DNA from: Calditrichota bacterium
GTDB taxonomy: Bacteria; Zhuqueibacterota; Zhuqueibacteria; Thermofontimicrobiales; Thermofontimicrobiaceae
Length of the DNA stretch: 34,418 bases
Assembly: GCA_013152715.1 (NCBI GenBank)
Contig: JAADFU010000023.1
Span: forward strand, 1 to 34,418
Direction of reading: 5' to 3'
Positions 24,477-34,418 of the stretch are shown here, piece by piece (the stretch's first letter is position 1; the number at the start of each line of letters is the position of its first letter). The notes beneath the pieces are model-generated. The model saw only the letters and a list, made by a program, of their open reading frames with translations. It did not search any database and was not told the origin of the DNA. Made by a program: the position numbers and the translations under genes.

Positions 24477-25030
24477 AATAGCCCACGGATGACACGGATT
24501 ACGCGGATAGGCACGGATAGAATTCCTTAAAATTATTGTCATAAGTATAATGTGTGTGCTTTCGAATAAAATGGGTGTTTATTTGCTTAAAAAGATAAAA
24601 GGGCAGCCAAATGTTACATTCAGATATAACAGACAAAATAATAAGAGCTTTCTATAATGTGAACAATACGTTAGGTTTTGGCTTTCTGGAAAAAGTTTAT
24701 GAAAATGCTATGATTATTGAGCTGCGCAAAATGGGTTGCAAGGTATTACAGCAACAAAACATTAAAGTATTTTACGACAACAAAATCGTTGGGGATTATT
24801 TTGCCGATTTGTTAGTTGACGACTTAGTTATTGTTGAATTAAAAGCTATGGATAGCCTTTGTGAAGAGCATGAGGCTCAATTGATTAATTATTTGAAAGC
24901 TACTGAAATAGAAGTCGGTCTTCTCTTAAATTTTGGAAAGAAGGCAGAATTCAGGAGAAAGATATTTACAAATGACCGGAAATAAAAAATCAGCGAAAAT
25001 CTGTGTAATCCGTGTCATCCGCGTGCTATT
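24477..25030. mobile_element. 554-bp element with 32-bp terminal inverted repeats carrying a GxxExxY gene
   Basis: Positions 24477-24508 and the reverse complement of 24999-25030 match at 28 of 32 bases without gaps, and the match stops abruptly at both outer ends. Each arm is built of heptads related to CACGGAT at a 9-bp pitch: 24484, 24493, 24502 (and a looser one at 24512) on the left; ATCTGTG, ATCCGTG and ATCCGCG at 24999, 25008 and 25017 on the right. The only gene inside is the GxxExxY gene at 24611. No clear target duplication is seen because the flanks are A-rich. It lies between the peptide-binding lipoprotein and an outer-membrane-like gene. Confidence 0.7.
24611..24985 (+). CDS. 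GxxExxY protein (PD-(D/E)XK nuclease-like fold)
   Basis: A 124-residue protein with the family signature 'GFLEKVY' (Gly24, Glu27, Tyr30) and the nuclease-like core 'GDYFADLLVDDLVIVELKA' in which Asp66 and the Glu76-x-Lys78 pair match a PD-(D/E)XK active site. 'EHEAQLINYLKAT' and 'VGLLLNFG' complete the fold. The biochemical role of this family is not established; the core predicts metal-dependent DNA or RNA cleavage. AAAGGG lies upstream of the ATG, and a possible TATAAT at 24546-24551 could start its transcript. It is enclosed by inverted repeats, which suggests the gene moves with, or acts on, those repeats. Confidence 0.88.
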   Translation: MLHSDITDKIIRAFYNVNNTLGFGFLEKVYENAMIIELRKMGCKVLQQQNIKVFYDNKIVGDYFADLLVDDLVIVELKAMDSLCEEHEAQLINYLKATEIEVGLLLNFGKKAEFRRKIFTNDRK

Positions 25031-30464: not shown

Positions 30465-32273
30465 CTATTCAGTAGTTATTTGAACCAATTTTTTCATTCT
30501 TTTCAAAAATTTTTCTGTTTCAATTTCTCCAACAATTCTCAATTCCTTAATTTCATTGCCACTACAATCAAGAAAAATATAAGTCGGCATTCCAACAACA
30601 TCATATTTGCTCTTTAATTTTTTAATTTGGTCACTCTCCACTGAGCAATTAACCTTAATCATTGAAAACTGTTTTGCTAATTCAGTTACTCGTCTATCCA
30701 TAAAAGTAGTTTTATCCATTTTTTTGCAGGCTAAACAATAATCTGTATAAAAATCAAGAATGGCGGGTTTATCAGTCTCTTGTATTTCAAACAAGTTCCT
30801 TCCTTCATAATGAACCCATTTAATCGCTGATGTTTCGACCTTTTTTGCGTTATTAATAAAAAGAATACCTGATAAAATGAGAACAATTCCTAATACATAT
30901 TTAATGAATTTGAATCCTTTTGAATAACCTGGTGTATGATCTAAAAATCCTAACATTAGCCCAGAAAATATTATCAGCAATCCGAAAAAAAAGCCCTGTT
31001 GGTTAGTAACATGTTTTGCTTGTGGCAGAAAGAAATACAGCGCAACACCTATTAAAAGGTAGCCAAACATTTTTCGCACCCAGACCATCCAGATACCCGA
31101 TTGTGGTAACTTATTTAGAAGCCCTGAAAAAGTTCCTAAAATTAAATAGGGTAAGCCAAGACCAAGTCCCATAATGAAAAATAGAAATGTCCCTTTTGCT
31201 ACGATGCCCAATTTTGCGACAAGCCCAACCAATCCAATGATTATCCCTGCCGCACATGGGGCGATAACGACGCCAACAGTGAGTCCCATAACAAAAGCGC
31301 CAACGTTTCCATCCCGGGATTTACCGAGACGGGATGATAACCACGCAGGTATTGTTATCTCAAATGCGCCAAACATGCTGGCAGCCATTGCTAAAATAAT
31401 GATGGTAATAATTACAACAAACCATGAATTTTGGAATAAAAATCCCCATTGTTTTCCGGCAAGACTGGAGATCAGTCCCAATAATGCAAAAATAATTGCA
31501 ATACCGAAAACATAAAATAATGCCATCAGGAAGCTCGAACTTTTTCTGCGATCACTTTGACCACCGAAAAATCCAACCGTCAGAGGAATGACAGGATATA
31601 CACAGGGAGTAAGGTTTAAAGCTAATCCAAAAACAAAAAATGAAATAATTGAAAAAAACAAACCTTTTTCTAATATGTTTTTAGCTCTAATCTCATCGGA
31701 AGTCAGTTGGATGGCTTCTGAAACTTTGGCTACCTTGTAATCCACAAGTTCTTTACTATTGTTTTTTATCGAAGATATTTTATTTTTAAATATCTTTACC
31801 GGAATTTTAAAATTTTCCTCCGCCGGATTTTTGCAGCTCACTTCATTACAAGCTTGGTATTTTATAACTCCCTTAAGTACAGAATTGTTTTCTGAAAAAT
31901 TTGGACTTATAATTGCTTTAACATTAAAAACAACGTCTCCTTCGTAAACAGCTATTTTTTCATCAATATAAGGCAGGGAAATTAATTTTGGCTTTGGATA
32001 GTTTATTTCACCTAATTTGATTCCTTTTTTAGGAAATAATTCAATTATAGTTGGTTTAAGATAATCTAAAGTCGGTTTATGTGAATAGATATGAAAACCT
32101 TCTTTTATCTTGATTCCAATTTGAATACTGACAGTGTCACCAGCGAAAATTTTTTGCGGGGACATTTTCGTTGAAACGGTTACTATACTATCTTTTGGAA
32201 CAGCTTGGCAAAATAGCTGTTGTAAAGTAATTAATAATATCAGACAGGCTATTGTTGTAACTTTTTTAGTCAT
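30465..32273 (-). CDS. dsbD: Thiol:disulfide interchange protein DsbD
   Basis: DsbD carries electrons from cytoplasmic thioredoxin across the inner membrane to keep periplasmic thiols reduced. All three parts are present. I use the ATG at 32273, which begins a clean signal peptide; an ATG at 32306 overlaps the upstream stop. In numbering from 32273, the periplasmic N-terminal domain has the Cys pair in 'ACNEVSC' (142 and 147). The eight-helix membrane domain has Cys in 'LTPCVYP' (224) and 'IAPCAAG' (340). The C-terminal thioredoxin-like domain has 'CLAC' (513-516) and the cis-Pro in 'VGMPTY'. At about 602 residues it is full length. It follows, with possible ATGA coupling, a gene cut off at the sequence junction. 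Confidence 0.95.
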   Translation of the reverse strand: MTKKVTTIACLILLITLQQLFCQAVPKDSIVTVSTKMSPQKIFAGDTVSIQIGIKIKEGFHIYSHKPTLDYLKPTIIELFPKKGIKLGEINYPKPKLISLPYIDEKIAVYEGDVVFNVKAIISPNFSENNSVLKGVIKYQACNEVSCKNPAEENFKIPVKIFKNKISSIKNNSKELVDYKVAKVSEAIQLTSDEIRAKNILEKGLFFSIISFFVFGLALNLTPCVYPVIPLTVGFFGGQSDRRKSSSFLMALFYVFGIAIIFALLGLISSLAGKQWGFLFQNSWFVVIITIIILAMAASMFGAFEITIPAWLSSRLGKSRDGNVGAFVMGLTVGVVIAPCAAGIIIGLVGLVAKLGIVAKGTFLFFIMGLGLGLPYLILGTFSGLLNKLPQSGIWMVWVRKMFGYLLIGVALYFFLPQAKHVTNQQGFFFGLLIIFSGLMLGFLDHTPGYSKGFKFIKYVLGIVLILSGILFINNAKKVETSAIKWVHYEGRNLFEIQETDKPAILDFYTDYCLACKKMDKTTFMDRRVTELAKQFSMIKVNCSVESDQIKKLKSKYDVVGMPTYIFLDCSGNEIKELRIVGEIETEKFLKRMKKLVQITTE

Positions 32274-32302
32274 GCTTTTGCCTTGTTTTTTGTGATCAAT
32301 TA

Positions 32303-32432
32303 TCATCTTTTCAATGTGGTAATGGTTATCCTTTTTTCAGCAAAAAGAATTTCTTTTGACTTTACCCGTTTCATCCCTCGCGTGAGTCTGATTATCTTTT
32401 CCAGATCTTCAGTTAGATAAGGAATGCCATCT
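32303..32432 (-). CDS. C-terminal fragment of an unknown gene, cut at the junction
   Basis: Upstream of dsbD on the minus strand a frame reads 'DGIPYLTEDLEKI' and continues through 'RLTRGMKRVKSKEILFAEK' to a TGA at 32305-32303, which overlaps the upper dsbD start (ATGA). It is AT-rich like the left part of the window. Going further upstream the frame meets a TGA at once (about 32435) and the DNA turns GC-rich. The N-terminal part of the gene is therefore missing, and I do not recognise the family from 43 residues. Confidence 0.6.
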
Positions 32433-33159
32433 CAATCGTCACATCCGCCAGGTGCGGTCAGCCTTACAGCAGCAAGACCCGCAGGCCATCTCTCGCAGCA
32501 TCCGGGAATTGCACCAGCAGGTTCTTCGTTGGCGCGATCTCACCACCAATTGGTCAGCTCTGCGCGAGATCGCTCTGGCCAGCATCAGCACCGCGGTACA
32601 CGAGGGGGACTACGTGGAGTTGCGTCATGCCAGCCAGGTGCGACTACACGCGCCAGAGGCTCCGCCTGACCTTACCTGGAATGCCTGGGCCGCGGTTTGT
32701 ACCGATCCAGCCATTCTCGAGCCGCTGGCCGACTGGCTGGTGAACGCTCTACCGGCGCGTGGCTGGCAATTCGACGTCATCTGTACCCTTTCTACTACCG
32801 GCATTCCCCTGGCTACCCTGCTGAGCGTAGGACTGAAGCGTACGCTCGTGGCCAGGGATAGCGAAACCGGCCACTTCATGCCGCGCCGGCCACAGCCCGG
32901 TGAACGCCTGCTCTTGGTGGATGCCACGGTGCAAACGGGCGGTCATATACAGGCGGCCGAGACCGAAGCTGCACGTGCTGGCGCCAGCGTAACCGCTGCT
33001 GTGGTGATAGCCATCAACGACATGGTGTCCGCCGATACGCGTGCGGGCATCGTTGCCCCCTGGCTGGCGGAGGGCCGTCTGCTCTATTTCTACCGCCTTT
33101 CCGACCTCTACCGTCATTGGCGGGCTGCGAAAAGTAGCCAGGACGAGGCCACAACATGA
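32410..33159 (+). CDS. 5'-truncated phosphoribosyltransferase-domain protein
   Basis: The frame is open upstream of the first GTG (32452) and reads 'DKECHLNRHIRQVRSALQQ' from about 32416, so the native start is probably lost at the junction. Residues after 'TTNWSALREIA' have 'LSTTGIPLATLLSVGLKR' and then 'RLLLVDATVQTGGHI', the PRPP-binding loop of type I phosphoribosyltransferases such as orotate phosphoribosyltransferase. Enzymes of this fold transfer ribose-5-phosphate from PRPP to a base, although some members are regulators. Codon use is GC-rich, unlike the left 32 kb. A second gene of the same fold begins at 33156 with an ATGA overlap. Confidence 0.75.
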   Translation, partial: QLDKECHLNRHIRQVRSALQQQDPQAISRSIRELHQQVLRWRDLTTNWSALREIALASISTAVHEGDYVELRHASQVRLHAPEAPPDLTWNAWAAVCTDPAILEPLADWLVNALPARGWQFDVICTLSTTGIPLATLLSVGLKRTLVARDSETGHFMPRRPQPGERLLLVDATVQTGGHIQAAETEAARAGASVTAAVVIAINDMVSADTRAGIVAPWLAEGRLLYFYRLSDLYRHWRAAKSSQDEATT

Positions 33160-33446
33160 CGCAAGTGGATGCAGCCTGGCCCGTAGAGCAGGATAGTATT
33201 CGTGCCCGCTTGCTGGCGCTCTTGCTTGAGGCTGGCGCTTACAGGCCCGAAAGCCAGTTCGTCAACGTTGACCACCTCTGGGCTACACCCTCTATCCTGG
33301 AGCCGTTTTGTCATTACCTGGCCGAGTTCTTGCGCGCGACACTTCCAGTGCCCCAGGTAGCAGGGCTAATCAGCTTGGAATTTGGGCGATTAGAAATCAC
33401 CGCTACCCTTGCCAAGCCCACCTTCGTGGGCTGGTTTCGATTCTGA
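33156..33446 (+). pseudogene. Phosphoribosyltransferase-like gene truncated by a repeat
   Basis: This gene starts at an ATG overlapping the previous stop. 'SILEPFCHYLAEFL' followed by 'VAGLISLE' aligns with 'AILEPLADWLVNAL' and 'VICTLSTTGIPLA' of the preceding gene. Directly after 'LISLE' (about 33380) the reading runs into the palindromic repeat at 33384 and ends at TGA 33446 inside it. The catalytic loop with its PRPP motif is therefore missing and the product should be inactive. It was probably a two-gene operon before the repeat entered. Confidence 0.75.
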
Positions 33447-33504
33447 TTCAGTCGGCGCAGGCCGACTTCGCGATGGTAGGTGCGGTTTCGAACCGCCCCC
33501 TGTC
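33384..33504 (+). repeat. Compound REP-like unit, copy A
   Basis: A 121-bp unit with three potential hairpins: GCCCAC/GTGGGC, GTCGGC/GCCGAC and GCGGTT/AACCGC. It is followed head to tail by copy B, and only a few bases differ. It interrupts the phosphoribosyltransferase gene. Confidence 0.85.
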
Positions 33505-33624
33505 GGGCGATTAGAAATCACCGCTACTCTTGCCAAGCCCACCTTCGTGGGCTGGTTTCGATTCTGATTCAGTCGGCGCAGGCCGACTTCGCGACGGTAG
33601 GTGCGGTTTCGAACCGCCCTCTAG
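33505..33624 (+). repeat. Compound REP-like unit, copy B
   Basis: Nearly identical to copy A in tandem, with the same three hairpins. It ends just upstream of the transposase gene. Confidence 0.85.
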
Positions 33625-33652
33625 AAACCGCCGTGCATCCGGAGCAGATTCC

Positions 33653-34096
33653 ATGCGAGCGCCCTACACGCAACTCTATCTGCACCTGGTGTGGGCAACG
33701 TGGGATCGGTTGCCCCTGATCACCGATGAGGTCGAGCCTCACCTCTATGCTGCGATTGCCGACAAATGCCGGGAGCTGAAGTGCGTCACGCTGGCGATTG
33801 GTGGTGTTGCTGATCACGTGCATCTTCTGGTGCGGCTGCACACAACTGTCTCGGCGGCCAAGTTGGCGAAACGAGTGAAAGGCTCCTCCTCCCATCTGGT
33901 GACCCACGAGATTAGGCCGGGAGAATTCTTCAAGTGGCAGGGCGCTTACAGTGCCTTCACCTTGCGGAAGGGTGACGTCCCGACCGTGCAGGCGTACATT
34001 GAGCGCCAGAAAGAACACCATGCCGTCGGACACTTGCGGGACGACTGGGAACAGATCATGATTCCAGATGAGGGACAAGAAGTATCGGTTGATTAG
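33653..34096 (+). CDS. REP-associated tyrosine transposase (IS200-like Y1 family)
   Basis: The 147-residue protein has the HUH motif 'DHVHLLV' (His55, His57) and the catalytic Tyr in 'VQAYIERQKEHH' (Tyr115), the hallmarks of Y1 single-strand transposases; 'LHLVWATWDRLPLI' and 'WQGAYSAFTL' also fit. I start at the ATG at 33653 because GGAG precedes it and the family similarity begins there. Such enzymes recognise hairpin repeats and are usually found next to REP elements, as here (copies on both sides). Its TAG stop lies within the next repeat copy. It seems intact, so it may be active. Confidence 0.93.
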   Translation: MRAPYTQLYLHLVWATWDRLPLITDEVEPHLYAAIADKCRELKCVTLAIGGVADHVHLLVRLHTTVSAAKLAKRVKGSSSHLVTHEIRPGEFFKWQGAYSAFTLRKGDVPTVQAYIERQKEHHAVGHLRDDWEQIMIPDEGQEVSVD

Positions 34097-34212
34097 TCGC
34101 CGCAGGCCGACTTCGTGAGGGTAGGTGCGGTTTCGAACCGCCGTTTGTCGGGCGATTAGAAATCACCGCCACCTTTCCCAAGCCCACCTTCGTGGGCTGG
34201 TTCCCGATTCTC
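34095..34212 (+). repeat. Compound REP-like unit, copy C (permuted)
   Basis: Immediately downstream of the transposase. The right half (GCCGCAGGCCGAC, GCGGTTTCGAACCGC) comes first, 34095-34148, and the left half (GGGCGATTAG to the GCCCAC hairpin) second, 34149-34212. This is the same unit as A and B, shifted in phase. Confidence 0.8.
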
Positions 34213-34216
34213 AAGA

Positions 34217-34306
34217 TCTGCGTCCGAAGCCTGCGCAAATCTGCGTCCCATTTTCCAACCGCCCTCTCTCTATCTGCGTGTATCAGCGTTCATCAGCGTC
34301 CCATTC
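34217..34306 (+). repeat. Array of ATCTGCG/ATCAGCG heptads
   Basis: ATCTGCG occurs at 34217 and 34239 (approximate), and a regular run ATCTGCG (34272), ATCAGCG (34282), ATCAGCG (34292) has a 10-bp pitch. It resembles in style the heptad arrays at the ends of the GxxExxY element, but no such gene is in view. Confidence 0.5.
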
Positions 34307-34312
34307 TCTAGT

Positions 34313-34363
34313 TCAGTCGGCGCAGGCGGACTTCGCGATGGTGGGCGTGGTCCCCAACCGCAC
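34313..34363 (+). repeat. Degenerate REP-like copy D
   Basis: CAGTCGGCGCAGG and CTTCGCGATGGT match the second half of copies A and B, with substitutions that spoil the GCGGTT hairpin. Confidence 0.65.
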
Positions 34364-34373
34364 TGCATTTGCG

Positions 34374-34402
34374 TAGACTACTGCGGGCGCTTGTGTTATA
34401 CT
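34374..34402 (+). promoter_or_regulatory. Possible promoter for a gene beyond the window
   Basis: TAGACT (34374-34379), a 17-nt spacer and TATACT (34397-34402). An ATG at 34414 could be the start of the next gene, almost without a leader. Confidence 0.35.
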
Positions 34403-34418
34403 TCAGTGACCCTATGAG

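Follow-up and report, generated by a model that had tools for sequence, protein, structure and literature searches.

What kind of unit is formed by a single small gene enclosed between inverted repeats at positions 24477 to 25030 of a 34,418-nt contig from a Calditrichota bacterium (this whole stretch is here called the window)? The initial annotation described a 32-bp inverted repeat composed of heptads recurring every 9 bp around a PD-(D/E)XK-like GxxExxY gene. The repeat was confirmed (24477-24508 and 24999-25030, 28/32 positions matched), and so were the heptads, but the arms turned out to be longer than described. Each contains a fourth heptad, with spacings of 9, 9, and 10 bp on both sides (24477-24520 and 24987-25030, read from the sequence). 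The left arm (24477 to 24520, plus strand; defined by sequence, inverted repeat, and a chance test) consists of a terminal AATAGC followed by the heptads CACGGAT (24484-24490), CACGGAT (24493-24499), CGCGGAT (24502-24508), and CACGGAT (24512-24518), all on the plus strand. The right arm (24987 to 25030, minus strand) has the outer end GTGCTATT on the plus strand, and its four minus-strand heptads read inwards as CGCGGAT (25023-25017), CACGGAT (25014-25008), CACAGAT (25005-24999), and CGCTGAT (24995-24989), the fourth beginning 4 bp past the GxxExxY stop codon. Between the arms, on the plus strand, are a leader extending from the left arm to the start codon (24521 to 24610), which is kept along with the gene in KSB1 4484_87, and the gene itself (24611 to 24985, 124 aa). 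The heptad-pair pattern with at most one mismatch has four matches in the window, all at this unit, and no shuffle reached that total. The unit is not inside 23S rRNA; its neighbors are a family-5 solute-binding protein gene and an unannotated open reading frame. Elsewhere in the window, 8.5 kb from the unit, a Y1 (RAYT-like) transposase gene (33530 to 34096) is flanked by several copies of a different, GC-rich REP. The G+C content rises from ∼0.30-0.42 to 0.60 in the segment from 32200 to 34418, possibly a recent insertion or a mis-binned contig end.

The assignment of the gene to the PD-(D/E)XK nucleases is based on profiles, residues, and predicted fold. The protein matches TIGR04256 (GxxExxY; E value 1.9e-40, 137.8 bits against a cut-off of 35) and PF13366 (PDDEXK_3; E value 1.2e-41, 142.1 bits against a cut-off of 22), and the gene is intact. 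Its PD-(D/E)XK residues are in place (E27, D66, E76-x-K78, Q90, and Y94). Across 197 proteins, G24, Y30, and N107 are each conserved in 196, D66 and K78 each in 195, and E27 in 194, and position 76 is E or D in all 197. The dN/dS between orthologues is 0.04 to 0.08, indicating strong purifying selection on the nuclease. In the PDB, the structures nearest to the AlphaFold2 model (pLDDT 92) are those of Cas4 SSO0001 (E value 2.8e-4), LHK-Exo, lambda exonuclease, and MGME1. The GxxExxY protein shares with these enzymes the predicted fold and the active-site pattern E, D, E-x-K, Q, but it is a single 124-aa domain with 15% identity, so that the similarity is one of fold only, and, unlike the genes of this group, the gene here adjoins no cas or recombination genes. 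Because the residues are conserved, the dN/dS is low, and the predicted fold is Cas4-like, it is very likely that the protein is an active RecB/Cas4-type nuclease. Tandem double-GxxExxY frames of ∼270 to 330 aa occur in several relatives (L065, G030:C37, G039:C266, and others).

Whether arms are absent around other GxxExxY genes, a question posed with the initial annotation, was addressed with 209 loci taken mostly from draft metagenome-assembled genomes. The 206 testable ones comprised 129 from the same phylum and 77 from named genomes (Ignavibacteria, Bacteroidota, KSB1, Cloacimonadota, Nitrospinota, Chloroflexota, and others). At each locus the left flank was aligned to the reverse complement of the right flank. 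At a score of ≥15, inverted repeats flanked 63% of the 206 loci, compared to 2.4% of 125 intervals drawn at random within these loci and 5.9% of mismatched GxxExxY flank pairs; at ≥18, the frequencies were 51% and 0 for genes and random intervals, respectively. The two sets agreed, at 60% and 65%. The value of 63% is probably a floor, since arms were visible by eye at several low-scoring loci. The 9-bp pitch is also general: identity within arms was 0.418 at lag 9 and 0.33 at lag 10 compared to 0.23 to 0.29 at the remaining lags, and the best lag among 130 arms was 9 in 72 and 10 in 22. Thus, the gene-plus-arms unit is widespread over many bacterial phyla. A tblastn search of 50,697 phage records gave no GxxExxY match, and a plasmid search gave only five distant ones. 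In the open-access literature, with subscription journals and preprints outside the search, GxxExxY was named only in passing and a description of the arms was not found; the architecture is apparently undescribed so far.

Further analysis of the arms showed that the spelling of the heptads follows the protein. In a maximum-likelihood tree of 117 GxxExxY proteins, a clade of 30 (clade B; 100/99 support) is marked by a two-residue insertion near the C-terminus (..LKDGIKR). Its arms have heptads ending in ..AG in 30 of 30 cases, whereas those outside the clade end in ..AT or ..AA in 70 of the 71 that were machine-readable; 18 further arms outside clade B could not be parsed by pattern, and many of these are CAGGAT or TATGAT by eye. 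Single genomes carry both kinds (in G004, L149 has ..AT and L040, L123, and L130 have ..AG; in G041, L127 occurs with L073), which rules out host composition as the cause of the spelling. At the level of sequence comparison, this agreement shows the GxxExxY gene and its arms to be one inherited unit, and it is suggestive of a nuclease that recognizes the heptads of its own clade. The initial annotation had raised the idea of an array-recognizing nuclease; the agreement between clade and heptad favors it, but co-inheritance alone could give the same agreement.

A parallel system was found around genes of an unrelated family, S23/IVP (PF05635), which has a four-helix-bundle fold. Inverted repeats flanked 62.5% of 64 such loci compared to 2.3% of mismatched flanks. 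The S23 arms (L066 and L326 to L394) peak at a different pitch, with identities of 0.587 at lag 7 and 0.555 at lag 14, and lag 7 was the best in 28 of 40 arms. The heptads differ from locus to locus, for instance TCAGTTA, GTGAAAC, and AAGGTTG. The first of these (L326) is the reverse complement of TAACTGA, a heptamer published as intergenic direct repeats in Beggiatoaceae without an associated gene (PMC4679880). Those repeats resemble the arrays described here in being tandem intergenic heptamers, and S23 elements may have been their source.

Does the unit move? Several comparisons bear on this. First, copies within one genome share only the unit. L227 and L229, from one metagenome-assembled genome, are 91% identical over 428 bp with unrelated flanks, and the homology stops at the arms. 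L191 and L192, also from one genome, are 96.5% identical over 512 bp with unrelated flanks, the homology reaching ∼36 nt beyond one arm into an outer box. Second, in 127 ordered locus comparisons with blocks of 330 to 700 bp over the gene, a set that is over-counted and selected owing to the length limit and shared members, homology went >40 nt beyond the left arm in 0.8% and beyond the right arm in 0%. Third, related genomes differ in occupancy, in comparisons made between species so that gain and loss look alike and exact junctions are unreadable. At a site between efflux-pump genes, G078 and G033 carry the element, G020, G030, G079, and G081 lack it, and G080 has a shrunken palindrome with a remnant of the 5′ part of the gene. 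A second site carries the element in G039 and is empty in both G078 and G020. At a third, between genes that are clpV-like and vgrG-like (named by eye), G078 has a GxxExxY unit (L268), G039 an S23/IVP gene with its own inverted repeats (L311), and G079 a gene-less array of different spelling (L309). As judged from these comparisons, gene and arms are shown to be one evolutionary unit that occurs at unrelated sites and is absent in some relatives, and the deletion derivatives show that gene-less hairpins, some of them at least, arise from gene-bearing units by internal deletion. The compact mobile unit first proposed from the window is therefore supported, both by copies at unrelated sites that share only the arm-to-arm block and by the sites in relatives that lack the unit or hold a deletion derivative of it. 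For the G015 loci, G027 and G075 were considered as carrying a clean empty site, a reading that was rejected because the upstream flank alone is conserved. The same data make it very improbable that the arms are immobile operators or terminators serving the enclosed and neighboring genes. Their intergenic position and hairpin-forming capacity would suit such a regulatory role, which is at odds with the polymorphic sites, with duplicates in one genome whose flanks are unrelated, and with the gene-less copies throughout genomes.

Target-site duplication was sought and none was convincing. Direct repeats of ≥5 bp occurred at 20% of loci compared to 11% of mismatched ones, a small excess that neighboring arrays could cause. 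For most orthologous pairs, the pattern is one of ordinary vertical inheritance, and units are also passed on vertically across large divergence; for example, L177 and L179 are orthologous (dS 0.94) with the arms retained. Homing-like co-conversion, which would leave the element more conserved than its flanks, does not appear to be general: such an excess was seen in the window and L172 (97% identity in the gene versus 86% in the upstream flank) and in L209 and L214 (core only), and most pairs showed no such excess. Two other loci are recorded here. A GxxExxY locus (L005, genome G000) is truncated by unrelated sequence in this genome, the one to which the window belongs, and intact in a sister species (L059, G001). 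The ∼1.1 kb around the GxxExxY gene is 83% identical between L073 (G041) and L086 (G043), from different families, a similarity suggesting transfer.

Most arrays contain no gene. In the 4.15-Mb genome to which the window belongs, the heptad-pair pattern with at most two mismatches has 51 matches compared to one for a reversed control. Most are intergenic palindromes without a gene, the fuller ones reading like AATAGCACGCGGATGACACGGATTAAACGGATTTTCGCGGAT, a loop, and the inverse; they are found between genes and on both strands. At the end of one contig, a GxxExxY gene of this genome (L002) lies within a tandem run of CACGGAGTCACGGAGCCACAAAG-type palindromes. Among 82 genomes, three-heptad arrays numbered 562 + 748 compared to 22 + 2 for reversed patterns. 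Arrays were commoner in GxxExxY-positive genomes (median, 10) than in negative ones (49, 10, 3, 2, 1, and four zeros; P = 0.005), a moderate association only, and clade-by-clade gene presence showed no significant relation to per-genome array number, with gene lists that are incomplete. These arrays bear on the idea that the palindromes are moved by another enzyme, such as a RAYT/Y1 transposase, with the GxxExxY and S23 genes as cargo. Gene-less palindromes far outnumber gene-bearing ones, and the genome encodes three Y1 transposases, one of them inside the window. G007 has 49 arrays, and neither a GxxExxY nor an S23 gene was found in its assembly, which is 85% complete; in G011, which has 10 arrays, a GxxExxY gene was likewise not found, and both genomes are incomplete (82 to 85%). 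No gene remnants were seen at 30 G007 array loci that were read. A second mobilizer, gene loss, or assembly gaps could each possibly explain the geneless arrays of G007. However, the RAYT of the window possesses its own unrelated REPs, cargo would not be expected to show a pitch that differs by gene family (9 with GxxExxY, 7 with S23) or a spelling that tracks the protein clade, and some gene-less hairpins at least derive from gene-bearing units. We therefore regard the cargo explanation as unlikely.

An idealized palindrome built from the right arm of the window is predicted to form a single DNA hairpin (−40.5 kcal/mol), and two natural gene-less copies fold more weakly (z scores of −5.3 and −2.6), yet still more stably than almost every one of 200 shuffled sequences. 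A role in RNA rather than DNA recognition, in which the arms would pair in the transcript and be processed (e.g., by RNase III) so that the insertion is tolerated, would fit the likeness to 23S intervening sequences (IVSs), whose terminal stem is cleaved by RNase III (PMC4990558), and the similar boxing of S23/IVP genes. We consider this distinctly unlikely. Mismatches between the arms show no clear sense-strand G-U wobble bias (155 versus 129, with 379 transversions; not significant), gene-less copies occur between genes on both strands, an Rfam search gave no match, and the pitch and clade-specific spelling of the heptads would be left unexplained.

Three known kinds of element invite comparison. 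Like REP/RAYT systems, the unit has a gene for a small protein between palindromes, and these are also dispersed between other genes in many copies without it. Unlike them, its sole gene is PDDEXK_3 rather than a Y1 HUH transposase, its palindromes are heptads at a 9-bp pitch, and its arm ends read AATAG/ATGG or AACC(A/G)C (by eye, in the arms listed) without the GTAG/CGTC tag that REPs carry (PMC3733652). IVSs, viewed as selfish elements, have a short open reading frame between terminal inverted repeats (PMC4990558), as here, and chromosomal S23 genes are also heptad-boxed; the unit differs in having no S23 (PF05635) frame, an unrelated protein, a position between protein genes, and a pitch of 9 rather than 7. 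It is similar to MITEs in its gene-less hairpins from internal deletion of gene-bearing elements, but target-site duplication was not found and a DDE transposase was not seen. By analogy, the element may work like REP/RAYT or IVS, yet it lacks the features that define either.

With moderate confidence, we favor a self-contained miniature element made of palindromic heptad arrays and the gene of its own PD-(D/E)XK nuclease, which would spread by way of the cognate palindrome. The GxxExxY protein would bind the heptads of its own clade, which are spaced about one helical turn apart, and would cut or trim the palindrome once it is extruded or single-stranded. The broken end would then be repaired by copying the unit. 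In this manner, the unit or a gene-less hairpin could spread, or refill another palindrome, without target-site duplication. The S23/IVP system would be its parallel, with a four-helix-bundle protein and arrays of 7-bp pitch. More tentatively, and short of calling it probable, we propose an undescribed class of elements in which unrelated small proteins (GxxExxY and S23/IVP) each read or generate their own heptad palindromes at a protein-specific pitch (9 versus 7), the intergenic heptad repeats of environmental genomes being their debris.

Genes for GxxExxY and for S23/IVP occur in multiple copies in many environmental genomes, and each family is now tied to an array architecture of its own. 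This link gives each a candidate function, that of an array-specific nuclease or binder, and offers a probable origin for the abundant intergenic heptad repeats. The two-clade ..AG/..AT code is testable by protein and arm swaps in vitro. Perhaps there is here another mode by which small elements spread, beside transposases and homing endonucleases.
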